Shown: piece after piece, positions 50,718 to 60,837 of the stretch
How positions within the stretch are numbered: position 1 is the first letter of the stretch
Layout of the letters: each line of letters starts with the position of its first letter
Source: Candidatus Nitrososphaera gargensis Ga9.2
GTDB taxonomy: Archaea; Thermoproteota; Nitrososphaeria; Nitrososphaerales; Nitrososphaeraceae
Length of the DNA: 64,000 bases
Assembly (NCBI RefSeq): GCF_000303155.1
Contig: NC_018719.1
Coordinates: 124,001 to 188,000, forward strand
Direction of reading: 5' to 3'
Position numbers and translations under genes: made by a program
The notes under the pieces: generated by a model
What the model saw: the letters and a program-made list of their open reading frames with translations, nothing else
What the model was told of the DNA's origin: nothing
Databases searched by the model: none

Positions 50718-51118
50718 CTATTTGGTTCTGTCACTGTTGCCTGCAAACTCCTTCATGATATAGGGACGAACATTTTCATAAATGACAAGAGCATTGCCTG
50801 CAGGGTCGTGGAAGGTGCAACAGGGACCCGGAGGGATTTCAATCCTATTTTCTTCTTTCAGCCTTTCGATTTCAATTGCGCAATCGCGTTTTCAAGGTTC
50901 TCCACTTGGTATATGAGCATCACGTCATTCTTGTGTATGTGATCTGCAAGCAGAATGTATGGCTTCTCCGCCTTTGATAGAGTAACGCACGCCACCCACA
51001 CTCCATATGCATGTATTTTCCATAACAGCTCGCCGCCAAGCACCTGAGTATAGTATTGTATCGAAGATTCGATATCTGGTGCAGGAACATACAGAAAGTC
51101 AAGCGATTTGAACATCAA
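50718..51118 (-). pseudogene. VOC (glyoxalase/dioxygenase-fold) protein with one frameshift
   Basis: ATG 51118 opens SLDFLYVPAPDIESSIQYYT, the start of a vicinal-oxygen-chelate domain, and stops after QLKSKG. One base over, the protein continues RLKEENRIEIPPGPCCTFHD then GNALVIYENVRPYIMKEFAG to TAG 50718, completing the second half. One base shift separates the halves, so it is a recent mutation or a sequencing error. Same strand as the monooxygenase and TFB genes upstream. Confidence 0.75.
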
Positions 51119-51181: not shown

Positions 51182-51808
51182 TTAGAACAGCCTTTTCTTT
51201 GACAGCCAAGGCCTCAGCAACCTTGTGACGGACGGCATTATTACGTAGGTCATGAGCAGAACCATCGTAACTACTCCTATGAGAGTGCTCAACAGAAAAG
51301 GAAGGCCGATCGTTGCCTGCCGTATCTGCGGGAGCAAGATGGATACTAGCACAAAAATGATGCCAGTCACAACTATCGCCATCTTGTGGCGCGGTGGCTG
51401 TATGGCAGCCGGGGGATTATTGCTGGAACTTGGGGTGAACCAGAACTCCAGCCCAGTCTGCATCTCTACCTTGGCTTCGCCCTCTGTCACGTCCTTGCTC
51501 TTTTCAATCCATTTTTTCCTTATCTCCGACTTTTCCCATTTCGCCAGATTTTCATATGTATTGAAGCGGAAGATTATGACGTATTCAGGATTTGATGACG
51601 CGTCAACCGGCCGGATTATGTTTACCCCCATGTGCCCTTCAAATTTCATGGCTTCGTGTATTACACCGTCCATCCATTCCTCAAATTCCCTGATCCTGCC
51701 ACTCTTTGCTTTCCTGGTGACGATAACCGTGATTGGGCCGTCGTCGTTCTTGCCATTACCATTCTGGTGCAGGGCCGTCATGTAATGTCGCCGATCTAAC
51801 CCTATCAT
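51182..51808 (-). CDS. Antibiotic-monooxygenase-type (ABM) domain with two membrane helices
   Basis: 208 aa. ABM ferredoxin-like domain at about 22-125 (ITVIVTRKAKSGRIREFEEW, FEGHMGVNIIRPVDASSNPE, YENLAKWEKSEIRKKWIEKS). Two helices follow (about 142-163, 168-192). ABM proteins oxidise quinol or polyketide rings or act on small aromatic compounds; the membrane anchor hints at a quinone pool link. It starts 8 bp after the TFB stop, so TFB and ABM form an operon. ATG at residue 10 is an alternative start. Confidence 0.85.
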   Translation of the reverse strand: MIGLDRRHYMTALHQNGNGKNDDGPITVIVTRKAKSGRIREFEEWMDGVIHEAMKFEGHMGVNIIRPVDASSNPEYVIIFRFNTYENLAKWEKSEIRKKWIEKSKDVTEGEAKVEMQTGLEFWFTPSSSNNPPAAIQPPRHKMAIVVTGIIFVLVSILLPQIRQATIGLPFLLSTLIGVVTMVLLMTYVIMPSVTRLLRPWLSKKRLF

Positions 51809-51816
51809 GACACCAC

Positions 51817-52794
51817 CTAGTCCTTACGAGTATTGCTCTCATTGAGCAGAGGAAATTTCTGTCCTCTGAGGGTAGATCGGCTGTTGCTATCCATGTCAAG
51901 TCTGTTCCTGAGTTCTTTTGACCTGTTCCTTACAGTCACTTCTGTGACTCCTGCTGCCTTTGCAATGTCTGCCTGCGTTCTGTAAGACTTTTCCTCCAAG
52001 TTTACAAGGTACAGAATAGATGCCGCCATGCCTATTGGGTCCCTGCCTGCCAGAAGGTCCTTTTTCCTGGCCTGCTCGATAAGCTCGAGGGCTTTGCGCT
52101 TTGTCCTTTCGTCAAGCTCCAGCCTGTTCGCTATTCTGATGATGTACCTTGCGTGGTCTATCATCGGCACCTTGATGTCAAGCTCTGTTACAATACGCCG
52201 GTAGGACCTGCCAGCCTGCTTGGGCTTGACGTCAATACTTGCCGAAATTTCATCAAGGGTCCTTAGCACTCCTGACTGCCTGACTGCAGTGTATATCGAA
52301 GCGGCCAGAACCGAGCCTATGCTGTCGCCCCGGATAAGACCTCTTTCCTGAGCTTTTCGATACACATATGCTGCCTTTTCAATCACGTAATCTGGCAGGC
52401 CTAGCCTGTCCTTGATCTTTGAGAGCATCGTAAAAGCCTGCTGCAGGCTTCTCTCCTTTGGCGAATGGCTATGGCTTATGCTATGCCACATCCTGAGCCT
52501 TCCCATCCTCATCTGGGTCGCAGAGTCGATCTGGTTGCCGGATGCGTCAGTGCTCTCTTTGCCTATGACTGTAGAGAGCCCCATGTCGTGAAAGGCCAAG
52601 GATACAGGAGCGCCTGTTCGTGCCCTGTCCGCGTCCCCCTCGGACCCAAATGCGCGCCATTCTTTTTCTTGAGATAATGCGTTATCAGAAATAACCTCGC
52701 CAGTATCCTTGCGTATCAATTCGCCTGTATCTGGATCAGTAACCACCAAGTCATGCAAGGCAACTGGATTTGCGCGTGATGTTTTGGTTGTCAC
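51817..52794 (-). CDS. tfb: Transcription factor B lacking zinc-ribbon cysteines
   Basis: 325 aa from GTG 52794, chosen because GTTAAAT (TATA-like) is 23-29 bp upstream; GTG 52815 is the next possibility. The two cyclin folds are intact (EKAAYVYRKAQERGLIRGDS ... RSYRRIVTELDIKVPMIDHA; TQADIAKAAGVTEVTVRNRS). The N-terminus has the zinc-ribbon frame VVTDPDTGELIRKDTGEVIS but none of the four cysteines, where TFB normally has CxxC and CxxCG. The B-finger WRAF motif remains. The ribbon recruits RNA polymerase, so a changed partner or regulatory role is likely. ABM follows in the same operon. Confidence 0.9.
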   Translation of the reverse strand: MTTKTSRANPVALHDLVVTDPDTGELIRKDTGEVISDNALSQEKEWRAFGSEGDADRARTGAPVSLAFHDMGLSTVIGKESTDASGNQIDSATQMRMGRLRMWHSISHSHSPKERSLQQAFTMLSKIKDRLGLPDYVIEKAAYVYRKAQERGLIRGDSIGSVLAASIYTAVRQSGVLRTLDEISASIDVKPKQAGRSYRRIVTELDIKVPMIDHARYIIRIANRLELDERTKRKALELIEQARKKDLLAGRDPIGMAASILYLVNLEEKSYRTQADIAKAAGVTEVTVRNRSKELRNRLDMDSNSRSTLRGQKFPLLNESNTRKD

Positions 52795-52816
52795 AATAAA
52801 ATATGGCGGCCGCACT

Positions 52817-52885
52817 ATTTAACTGCAGTAGCAATTTCCTACTTAGTAGGTTAACAACATCTGCCTAGGTAAGCGGAAACTGACC
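52817..52885 (-). promoter_or_regulatory. TFB promoter with TATA-like box and two inverted repeats
   Basis: Minus-strand reading: GGTCAG-N6-CTTACC type repeat (52868-52885), perfect palindrome CCTACT-T-AGTAGG (52838-52850), ATTGCTAC (52828-52835), and GTTAAAT as TATA (52817-52823). The same elements occur in the same order and at the same spacing upstream of pirin (53901-53969). Two operators upstream of the TATA suggest an activator. Confidence 0.75.
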
Positions 52886-52953
52886 TGTCATAGCTAGAAA
52901 AAACTATGGCGGAAGGCAGGCTCAAAACATAGTCCTGCTTCCTTTTTCACAAA

Positions 52954-53877
52954 CTAAAAGTCAATCTTGCCCATCCTGCCGCTTCTATAGTCCTCTATCG
53001 CTTGGTAGATCTCATCCTTTGTATTCATCACAAACGGCCCATAGCGGGCGACAGGCTCCTTCAGCGGCACGCCTGCTATTAGCAGAACGTCCAGAGGCGA
53101 TGCGGCGTCGCTTGGCGACTTTATCGATACCTTGTCGCCACCATTTGCAAACAGTACGACCTGCTCTCTTTGCGCGGGCTTTTCATCTACCCCAAAGAGC
53201 CCCTTGCCGCCGACTATGTACGCAAACGCGTTATAGTCCTGCGGGACTGGTTGCGCCATCTCTGCGCCCGGCTCGAGAGTAAAGTGCAGGTACATTATCG
53301 GGGTCCGCGTTTCTATTACCGCTTGCTTGCCAAGCGCCTCTCCCGCAATCACCCTGACCTTCACGCGACCGTCAGGGCTCTTGGCAACAGGTATCTCGGC
53401 GCTTGGGATGTCCTGGTAGCGCGGTTTTACCATCTTGTCGCGCCTTGGCAGGTTGACCCACAGCTGAAAGCCATGCAGCCTCCCACCTGTGCGCACAAAT
53501 TCTCTTTCTGGCATTTCAGAGTGTATCACGCCGGCGCCGGCAGTCATCCACTGCACGTCCCCGGCGGCAAGCTTGCCAGAGTGCCCCTGCGAGTCCTTGT
53601 GCTCAAACCGACCGTCAAGCAAGTATGTCACTGTCTCAAAGCCCCGGTGTGGATGGTCTGGTGCGCCCTTGGCTTCTCCGGGAGCGAGGACCATCGGGCC
53701 CATTTCGTCCAGCAGCATGAATGGATCAAAGTCTGGAAGGAAATGCGTCGGGAACGACCTGTGCACCAAAAAGCCTTCGCCTTCCATCGTCCTAGTGCTG
53801 TTTACAATGCGCTGTACAGAGCGAGACGTGCTTGTGGTAGAATCGTTATTGTTCACCAACGAATTTTTAGTAACCAT
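52954..53877 (-). CDS. Pirin family protein
   Basis: 307 aa bicupin. The metal site in the N-terminal cupin is visible: DHPHRGFETVTYLLDGRFEH (two His), MTAGAGVIHSEMPE (His and Glu). C-terminal cupin has MYLHFTLEPGAEMAQPVPQD. Pirins bind iron and some are quercetin dioxygenases or redox sensors. Starts from ATG 53877, 24 bp after the TATA-like box at 53901. Its promoter matches that of the TFB gene, so the two are probably coregulated. Confidence 0.92.
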   Translation of the reverse strand: MVTKNSLVNNNDSTTSTSRSVQRIVNSTRTMEGEGFLVHRSFPTHFLPDFDPFMLLDEMGPMVLAPGEAKGAPDHPHRGFETVTYLLDGRFEHKDSQGHSGKLAAGDVQWMTAGAGVIHSEMPEREFVRTGGRLHGFQLWVNLPRRDKMVKPRYQDIPSAEIPVAKSPDGRVKVRVIAGEALGKQAVIETRTPIMYLHFTLEPGAEMAQPVPQDYNAFAYIVGGKGLFGVDEKPAQREQVVLFANGGDKVSIKSPSDAASPLDVLLIAGVPLKEPVARYGPFVMNTKDEIYQAIEDYRSGRMGKIDF

Positions 53878-53900
53878 AAATACATTGTATGCAGTTACTT

Positions 53901-53969
53901 ATTTAACCTAGGTAGCAATAACTTACTTAGCAGGTCTGTTGCACCAAACGTGGTAAGTTTGGACTTACC
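53901..53969 (-). promoter_or_regulatory. Pirin promoter with shared TATA and two inverted repeats
   Basis: Same arrangement as upstream of TFB: GTTAAAT (53901-53907), ATTGCTAC (53912-53919), CTTACT-T-AGCAGG on the plus strand (53922-53934, imperfect palindrome), GGTAAG-N6-CTTACC (53952-53969, perfect 6-bp arms). Gaps are 4, 2 and 17 bp in both places. 26 of the first 34 positions agree. Confidence 0.75.
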
Positions 53970-53975
53970 ATGGGT

Positions 53976-54941
53976 TCAAATCCCCTTTATCCCCTGCGCT
54001 ACCAGAATCGAGTAGCAGCCAAGGCCGCACTCTTCGCATATTGGCTTCATGCTCTTTGGGTCAGCGCTGCCTATGCAGCAGGGCTGCTTGACCCTTCCCA
54101 TGTGGTCAAGCGACAGTATAGCCCATGAGGGGCAGTCCACTGGCGTCGTCCCTACTCCACCCCAGTTGCCCTTCATCAGGGACATCTGGCTGATAGGGTT
54201 GACGATATAGTTGGGATACTTTTTCTTTAATGCGATCAGCTTGTCAACTACTGAATTGCGCAGCTCGCCAAACGGCAGCATCAGCGGGTCGCCCTTGGCA
54301 AACGGCGTATGGAACTGAAGACCAATCTTGTTTACTTTTCCCCTCCATTCTTCTATCAAGTCTTCGACAGTCATGTAATTCCGTGAATTTATTGTCATTG
54401 AGAGCCAGATTTCCTTCCAAGCAGGTATCCCATTATGCGGTGGACCTGCAGTATAGTCGAGTATGTTCTTCTTTGTCTTTGCATATGCTCCTTCTCCCCT
54501 TATGCTGTCATGCACCTTCTCCGTTCCGTCCAACGATACCCAGTAGAAATACAGTCCATTGTAGCGCTTTAATGGAAAAGTTCCATTTGTGACGACGCAG
54601 ACCCTCTTGGGCATCTCTTTGCAAAAGAGCTCGATTATGTCCGGGCGCAGCGTAGGTTCTCCACCGACGAGAGTAGTGATAAAAATGCGCTGTTTGTTAA
54701 AGACGTCCTTGATTATCTTCCTCCAGTCCTCGACCGTCTTGTCCTTCTCTTCCTTTCGGTTGAGCCACCAGTAGCAGTGGGTGCAATGCAAATTGCAAAT
54801 GTTGTTAACGTCTACAGAGCCGTGCAAGGGCTGCTTAACACCAAACAGCCTATACGCAATCATTTTCCTGATTAGGCTAGTGTAAAACGGCATTTCGCGG
54901 ATAAGGTCGGTTATGCTGCGGCCATAAATCAGGTCTACCAT
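53976..54941 (-). CDS. Radical SAM protein
   Basis: 321 aa. CNLHCTHC near residues 50-57 is the CxxxCxxC cluster motif (4Fe-4S and SAM). GGEPTLRPDII and VVTNGTF follow as in the TIM-barrel family. A second Cys set at the C-terminus (CPSW, CC, CEECGLGC) is SPASM-like and could bind another cluster. No substrate inferable. The C-terminal nine residues are encoded opposite a T-arm-like sequence next to the pirin promoter, so the true ending may have changed. Confidence 0.88.
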   Translation of the reverse strand: MVDLIYGRSITDLIREMPFYTSLIRKMIAYRLFGVKQPLHGSVDVNNICNLHCTHCYWWLNRKEEKDKTVEDWRKIIKDVFNKQRIFITTLVGGEPTLRPDIIELFCKEMPKRVCVVTNGTFPLKRYNGLYFYWVSLDGTEKVHDSIRGEGAYAKTKKNILDYTAGPPHNGIPAWKEIWLSMTINSRNYMTVEDLIEEWRGKVNKIGLQFHTPFAKGDPLMLPFGELRNSVVDKLIALKKKYPNYIVNPISQMSLMKGNWGGVGTTPVDCPSWAILSLDHMGRVKQPCCIGSADPKSMKPICEECGLGCYSILVAQGIKGI

Positions 54942-59912: not shown

Positions 59913-60821
59913 ATGGTAATGCAGTCTTCAACAATCTCTTGCATGTGCGGTAAAGACCAGCAGCTTGTAACAGACTTGGAATCTGGCGAAATAGTATGTA
60001 GCAAGTGCGGCCTTGTATCATCCGATAGGGTCCAAGAAAGTCGCGCAGAATGGCGAATATTCAATTCAGAGAGCAATGGCAGGTCGAGGGTAGGGTCTCC
60101 TTCATCTCTTGCCTATCATGATATGGGTTTGGCAACAGTAATCGGAAAAGAAAATAGAGATTCGAGCGGACATCAGCTTGAGCCCTCAATGAATGCAAGT
60201 ATCCAGAGACTAAGAACATGGGATTTCAGATCGCAAGCACATTCGCCTACGAAGAGAAATCTTATGCATGCCTTTAGCGAGCTTGGAAGACTGAAGGATA
60301 AACTCGGGTTATCTGACGCGATAATGGAAAAGACTGCCTATCTATACAGAAAGGCTCACGAAAAACACTTGGTAAGGGGAAGGTCTACTTCATCCATTTT
60401 AGCGGCTGCTATATACGCTTCATGCAGAGAGTTGGGAGCCTCAAGAACATTAAAAGACGTGGCTAAAGCGACTGACATCAAGCGCAAGGCTATTTCACGC
60501 AGCTACCGAATTCTTGTCTTGGAACTTGACATTAAGGTGCCTCTGGCGGATCCAATGAAATGCATCGCCAAGATAGCAAACAGCGCGAAATTGACTGAGA
60601 AGACCAAACGGATGGCGATGGACACCATGAACGATCTCATTGGGAAAGAGATTTCTGCAGGCAAGCTTCCTATGGGCCTTGCAGCGACAGTTCTTTACAT
60701 GTCTTGCCTAGCCAATGGGGAAAGTAAAACTCAAAAAGATATTGCAGATATGGCAGGAGTAACGGAAGTCACCATCAGAAATAGGTTCAAGGACCTAAAA
60801 GCAAAGCTGGAATTGGAGTAG
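59913..60821 (+). CDS. tfb: Transcription factor B with zinc ribbon
   Basis: 302 aa. N-terminal zinc ribbon with CMC (one residue between cysteines rather than two) and IVCSKCGLVSSDRVQESRAE, then two cyclin folds (KTAYLYRKAHEKHLVRGRST; TQKDIADMAGVTEVTIRNRF). It recruits polymerase to TBP-bound promoters. TATA-like CTATAATATAATA is at about 59850. ATG 59922 (MQSSTI) is an alternative start. The first zinc knuckle is atypical. Clearly related to the TFB at 51817. Confidence 0.93.
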   Translation: MVMQSSTISCMCGKDQQLVTDLESGEIVCSKCGLVSSDRVQESRAEWRIFNSESNGRSRVGSPSSLAYHDMGLATVIGKENRDSSGHQLEPSMNASIQRLRTWDFRSQAHSPTKRNLMHAFSELGRLKDKLGLSDAIMEKTAYLYRKAHEKHLVRGRSTSSILAAAIYASCRELGASRTLKDVAKATDIKRKAISRSYRILVLELDIKVPLADPMKCIAKIANSAKLTEKTKRMAMDTMNDLIGKEISAGKLPMGLAATVLYMSCLANGESKTQKDIADMAGVTEVTIRNRFKDLKAKLELE

Positions 60822-60837
60822 GAGAATTCAATTACAC

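Follow-up and report, generated by a model that had tools for sequence, protein, structure and literature searches.

A fixed two-operator promoter module shared by TFB and pirin genes points to a probable HxlR-type regulon across ammonia-oxidising archaea

Two promoters in the 64,000-nucleotide stretch of DNA analysed here (the window; C1:124001-188000 of a single-contig genome of 2,833,868 bp), one preceding a TFB paralogue and the other a pirin gene, each consist of a copy of one rigid promoter module of 74 bp. They are likely members of a regulon that extends across the ammonia-oxidising archaea and that would be controlled by one HxlR/DUF24 winged-helix regulator, acting as an activator and sensing electrophiles. 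The module, its spacing, its targets, its linkage to and co-occurrence with HxlR genes, the invariant cysteine of these proteins and the cysteine-free TFB were all read from sequence. By its predicted product, the most unusual target of the module is a basal transcription factor wholly free of cysteine.

Results

Architecture of the promoter module

The regions upstream of TFB and pirin hold the same elements in the same order with identical spacings of 4, 2 and 17 bp, and all were found where the first-pass annotation had placed them. Read from the TATA box outward, these are GTTAAATA, 4 bp, ATTGCTAC, 2 bp, a 13-bp palindrome, 17 bp and a second inverted repeat. The TFB copy of the whole 74-bp module (model positions 2-73) occupies 52816..52887 on the minus strand, with its TATA box GTTAAATA at 52816..52823 (minus strand; read in the sequence) and the proximal element ATTGCTAC (ATTRCTAC), 5 bp upstream of TTAAATA, at 52828..52835 (minus strand; sequence and promoter alignment). 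Farther out lie the perfect palindrome CCTACTTAGTAGG, the core of the proximal operator, at 52838..52850 (sequence, pattern scan and promoter alignment), and the distal inverted repeat GGTCAG-N6-CTTACC at 52868..52885. The pirin copy (model positions 4-74) occupies 53899..53969 on the minus strand, with the TATA box GTTAAATA at 53900..53907 (minus strand; sequence and promoter alignment), the proximal element ATTGCTAC at 53912..53919 (minus strand; sequence and pattern scan), the imperfect palindrome CTTACTTAGCAGG at 53922..53934 (sequence and pattern scan) and the distal inverted repeat GGTAAG-N6-CTTACC, whose arms are perfect, at 53952..53969 (read in the sequence).

The consensus of the module is GTMAG-N6-CTTACY-N17-palindrome-N2-ATTRCTAC-N5-TTAAATA, in which the palindrome column is CTTACCTACTWAGTARG (20-site alignment). 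The distal repeat had previously been written GGTAAG-N6-CT[GT]ACC; its place is correct, and the first part of the consensus, GTMAG-N6-CTTACY in the direction of transcription, is the better notation. TTAAATA is near-invariant across 43 aligned promoters, and the start codon usually stands 21-24 nt past the module TATA, a leaderless arrangement.

A separate observation concerns the DNA upstream of the pirin promoter, where positions 53945-53993 (minus strand) resemble a tRNA-Ser/Leu in its variable arm, T arm and acceptor end, possibly by chance or as a relic. The distal inverted repeat of pirin falls within this stretch, which in Rfam matches just a plastid family bearing antisense trnS, and that weakly. 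The idea that the pirin-side repeat derives from a tRNA relic was rejected, as ARAGORN calls no tRNA and relatives keep the repeat without the tRNA-like sequence.

Statistical support and distribution

A 23-bp pattern of the proximal part, CCTRCTAAGTARGNNATTGCTAC, has exactly 2 matches in the 64 kb at ≤3 mismatches and 0 in shuffles. A matrix of 74 columns derived from 18 sites in other genomes, to which neither window site contributed, gives the TFB promoter 73.2 and the pirin promoter 64.6 bits; no other place in the window exceeds -11.8, and the maximum in 1.5 Mb of reversed control DNA is 5.3 bits. Each half of the module is significant alone, the distal half with 23.9 (TFB) and 14.2 (pirin) bits against a control maximum of 6.0, and the proximal half with 49.1 (TFB) and 49.0 (pirin) bits against -1.2.

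Pirin orthologues were located by protein in 70 family genomes and their upstream DNA was then read. Most of these promoters retain the proximal operator and TATA box at the same spacing, and members of the genus retain the distal repeat too. A short-pattern scan added promoters of other genes (the reversed-pattern control was lower), and 20 promoters from several unrelated gene families align without gaps over the 74 columns. The sequence-only model of the module, R1, was trained on sites that included some picked up with the motif of the first-pass annotation, while the pirin orthologues came via protein; whole-genome scans over 40 genomes used stricter filters. R1 found matches in 64 of the 70 family genomes (E<=1), and five sites only at E<0.01 in the 2.83-Mb genome itself: TFB (2.6e-17), pirin A (5.2e-16), pirin B (2.7e-11; C1:2537863) and, weakly, an MFS gene (E=0.002) and C1:951611 (E=0.0085). 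Because many unrelated genes carry the module, promoter duplication can be rejected, which bears out the earlier reading of a conserved regulatory signal; orthologous promoters without the palindromes had been named as the outcome that would speak against that reading, and most orthologous promoters retain them.

The module as a whole is a loose, large dyad with its centre near column 31.5, so that its distal half and its proximal half resemble a single composite operator present in two inverted copies. Elsewhere, at G020:C74:2030-2114 and G023:C463:3249-3333, modules overlap on the two strands, an arrangement in which a single set of operators might serve divergent promoters.

Target genes

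Based on the Pfam families of the downstream genes, targets within the family comprise luciferase-like monooxygenases (LLM), pirin A, pirin B, TFB, nitroreductase, NmrA, SDR and FMN reductase, along with Rieske, DsbA/thioredoxin, VOC, MFS, response regulator and HxlR regulator genes. The enzyme types of quinone and electrophile regulons (nitroreductase, flavin reductase, quinone oxidoreductase-like, dioxygenase/quercetinase) are present among them and, by these annotations, nearly all targets are predicted redox or electrophile-handling proteins. The genome studied here has only its two pirin genes and TFB as such targets, plus an MFS transporter with weak support. The pirin A gene (52954..53877, minus strand; Pfam Pirin and Pirin_C) is leaderless and encodes a quercetinase-like cupin of 307 aa, the orthologues of which have the module upstream across the class. 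Outside the family, the module stands in f2 before both pirin A and pirin B, and in f4 before a zinc-ribbon TFB (weaker sites, 2e-5 and 4e-4) and a PNPOx-like protein; we infer these groups to be Nitrosopumilus-type and Nitrosocaldus-type, respectively. In g6 genomes, weak modules stand before small cysteine-rich proteins with the motifs ECGCxCHPG... and CSGCxPMHG (L188, L189 and L196; no Pfam match for L189).

Eight nucleotides past the TFB stop lies the gene of an ABM-domain membrane protein (51182..51808, minus strand; Pfam ABM 20.6 bits, just under the cut-off), probably cotranscribed with TFB in this genome, and a VOC-domain ORF is found farther downstream (50858..51118, minus strand; Pfam Glyoxalase). 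Among the genomes compared, ABM and VOC genes follow TFB only here, and no homologue of either was found beside TFB in five orthologous loci, for which reason they were rejected as conserved regulon members. Of the small regulon of TFB-ABM-VOC plus pirin that had been predicted, the union of TFB and pirin holds, as both carry the module, and the ABM and VOC genes drop out. Nor is the regulon small, as this genome has three more sites, a strong one at the second pirin and two that are weak, and relatives add many more targets. A literature search found no paper joining pirin, Nitrososphaera and promoter, and no transcriptome with these genes.

A TFB without zinc ribbon or cysteine

The TFB gene (51817..52794, minus strand; Pfam TFIIB) encodes 325 aa from a GTG. 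The ORF is also open from 52815, and the start is probably the leaderless GTG at 52794, 21 nt past the TATA box. The protein contains two TFIIB cyclin-like repeats (PF00382 in 2 stretches, 121 bits) and zero cysteines, and its N-terminus falls short of the zinc-ribbon model (17.7 bits against a cut-off of 29). The six TFBs of the genus whose genes carry the module form one clade (100/99), with no cysteine in any of them; in the other TFBs of the family that were compared, 3-6 cysteines lie N-terminally and 1-4 in the core. TFBs preceded by the module in G002 and f4 keep the ribbon, those of f4 without core cysteines; the G002 protein is placed as sister with moderate support only (94/81) and on a long branch. 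Given the ribbon kept in G002 and f4 and the cysteines of the other family TFBs, the ribbon and remaining cysteines were probably lost in the lineage of the genus.

Two further TFB observations can be recorded. The window contains a second paralogue at a distance of 7 kb (59961-60830, plus strand; 46% identity to the first), and a subgroup within the genus (L022, L026, L027, L028 and L032) has an altered ribbon, in which the first CxxC reads C-K/R-H and the second pair is kept.

A candidate regulator

Among the 150 HxlR genes listed, 26, in 26 family genomes, lie ≤3 kb from a module where about 0.7 would be expected, though the linked genomes are mostly related and these and the following counts are not phylogenetically independent events. 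The arrangements vary: the HxlR gene may be divergent from pirin, second in an LLM operon, downstream of or in tandem with pirin, or have the module in its own promoter. A tree of 73 HxlR proteins groups the linked genes, except the neighbour of the MFS gene of this genome, in one clade of 45 members (support 100/95), and 25 of the 26 linked family HxlR proteins belong to the clade or, if outside the tree, closely match its model (6.6e-44 for that of G025:C21). Outside the family, 20 of the 25 module-bearing genomes have a clade-model HxlR within 2 kb; the matches in f4 and f7 are weaker (about 1e-26 to 1e-31), which makes their clade membership less sure.

In genomes ≥90% complete, the module (E<5e-5) occurs in 28/28 with the HxlR clade versus 2/11 without it (p=2.6e-7). 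Three genomes depart from simple co-occurrence: G040 (93% complete) and G068 carry strong modules but no full HxlR of the clade, with a partial match in G068, and G217, of another family, has a strong module for which only an HxlR fragment was found. Four genomes (G013, G014, G015 and G056) have no HxlR of the clade; the module is gone too and pirin A mostly gone, G056 retaining pirin A with a degenerate operator and an intact TATA box.

The orthologue in this genome, the proposed regulator, is encoded outside the window at C1:2548075-2548386 (minus strand). It has an HxlR winged-helix domain (PF01638, 88.4 bits, cut-off 20.8) and PDB matches to HxlR (7bze), YybR/HypR (4a5m) and YodB (5hs7). 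Within the genus, its gene is not adjacent to TFB or pirin and lies 4.7-10 kb from pirin B. The HxlR gene beside the MFS gene (C1:1987953-1988243) was rejected as the regulator, as the tree places it in another subfamily. One member of the genus has, in addition to the usual HxlR of the genus, an LLM-HxlR operon (G039:C120; L106 and L233) closest to those of G049 (g9) and of G066 and G069 (g12), a likeness to other genera that suggests horizontal transfer of a regulator-target cassette.

Across 25 aligned sequences, the clade has one invariant cysteine shortly before a conserved LGRRW, and in phmmer alignments this cysteine matches the sensing cysteine of B. subtilis HxlR. In that protein, formaldehyde acts on Cys11 to give the DNA-binding form and activation (PMC7835342), and HOCl, quinones and diamide are sensed through N-terminal cysteines in HypR, YodB and CatR, of which HypR is an activator (PMC6943732). 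A single HxlR (DUF24) subfamily with one invariant N-terminal cysteine is the likely regulator of the module, and the regulon most likely responds to thiol-electrophile stress.

Discussion

HxlR, linked to and co-occurring with the module, is the predicted binder of its inverted repeats; this binding, the signal or inducer, the sign of regulation and the reason for the loss of cysteine are the parts of the scheme that we infer. The regulator would use its single conserved N-terminal cysteine to sense thiol-reactive electrophiles or oxidants (quinones, aldehydes, reactive chlorine or nitrogen species), and its dimer would bind CTTAC/GTAAG-type half-sites in two composite operators roughly 32 bp, or three helical turns, apart. 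From these sites directly upstream of BRE/TATA the dimer could then recruit or stabilise TBP/TFB, switching on leaderless transcription of genes for detoxification enzymes and for a TFB dedicated to stress. Lacking zinc ribbon and cysteine, the TFB of the genus would offer no thiol or zinc site to the same stress. In the promoter of the regulator itself, the related operator sequence between TATA and the start codon occupies the place expected for autorepression.

The position of the operators bears on the sign of regulation. At the targets they end 5 bp before TTAAATA, upstream of the BRE, and for OxsR of Haloferax sites 5' of BRE/TATA activate and 3' sites repress (PMC9426492). The leaderless hxlR promoters of the genus have a conserved AAGTMAGTAATTACTAC-like block between TATA and ATG, with a modest operator signal (12/38 at p<0.05 versus 2/26 controls; rank test p=0.005). 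Taken together, operators 5' of BRE/TATA at the targets and the block 3' of the hxlR TATA favour activation of the targets by HxlR and repression of its own gene; the first-pass annotation was right that operators upstream of TATA fit an activator. An HxlR repressor like YodB or CatR, blocking TFB or polymerase near the BRE until released by cysteine modification, would account for the same regulon and is unlikely, although it has precedent: the closest biochemical relatives include the cysteine-inactivated repressors YodB and CatR (PMC6943732, PMC6212828), these known DUF24 repressors also control such genes, and ATTRCTAC is near enough to TTAAATA that the operator touches the BRE region. Such blocking sits poorly with two composite operators wholly upstream of TATA in fixed phase, which is the archaeal activator position under the OxsR rule (PMC9426492), and with the related sequence lying downstream of TATA in the hxlR promoter.

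It is also conceivable, if quite improbable, that another, unlinked regulator binds the module and that HxlR adjoins it merely as a target. The module does occur in the own promoters of HxlR genes in G020, G022 and G023, and G040 has modules without the HxlR clade. Mostly, however, the HxlR gene has no module of its own and adjoins a target, in varied arrangements and in several families, and HxlR is absent where the module is absent.

The earlier proposal, in which the zinc-ribbon-less TFB, or a TFE-type factor, itself recognises the palindrome to drive both its own gene and pirin, is very doubtful. Autoregulation is conceivable for a TFB gene that carries the module, but the module stands in many genera and families where no orthologue of this TFB was found, it co-occurs with HxlR rather than with this TFB, and palindromes 15-60 bp upstream of TATA are unlike the usual TFB contacts. 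A generic strong promoter or chance similarity without any regulon is scarcely credible, as TATA and leaderless spacing are generic in archaea but only five sites reach E<0.01 genome-wide, each half alone far exceeds the reversed controls and the distribution of the module tracks one regulator.

Under the preferred HxlR-activator reading, a TFB free of thiols and zinc would make sense as a member of a regulon for thiol stress. The zinc ribbon of TFB normally docks RNA polymerase, so the cysteine-free protein could equally be a competitor or inhibitor. The fullest form of the scheme, a class-wide electrophile-stress regulon in which a one-cysteine HxlR activator on a fixed module drives detoxification together with a cysteine- and zinc-free TFB that sustains initiation while thiols and ribbons are under attack, is offered only as a tentative possibility.

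Gene regulation in ammonia-oxidising archaea is little known, and these organisms weigh heavily in the nitrogen cycle; our literature search found no operator-regulator pair of this kind described for them. The analysis yields a defined operator, a candidate regulator, a list of targets and a testable signal, with presence in Nitrososphaera-type and, as assigned above, Nitrosopumilus-type lineages. It also raises the question of how a ribbon-less TFB works and whether total loss of cysteine is an adaptation to thiol stress.

Several known systems offer partial parallels. HypR and HxlR of B. subtilis share the Pfam family, the single aligned N-terminal sensing cysteine and the activation of detoxification genes, but they act on sigma promoters, have another gene set and do not target a general transcription factor. 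The YodB, CatR and QsrR quinone regulons likewise belong to the HxlR family, with nitroreductase, azoreductase-like flavoprotein and VOC dioxygenase targets; they differ in being governed by repressors, in their cysteine sets and in lacking a fixed two-operator module tied to TATA, and no pirin or TFB is on record for them in the literature consulted for comparison. OxsR of Haloferax volcanii, of the TrmB family, is an archaeal winged-helix thiol sensor with a thiol-oxidant regulon and a position-dependent sign of regulation, yet it comes from a different protein family (PF01978) and has a CG-rich motif. The alternative TFBs of haloarchaea and the biofilm-linked ones of ammonia-oxidising archaea resemble the present case in their multiple paralogues and condition-specific expression, although for the latter no operator or regulator is defined and membership of the cysteine-free group is not established there (PMC12448741). 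In biofilms of three ammonia-oxidising archaeal strains, a nitroreductase and a TFB are both up-regulated (PMC12448741).
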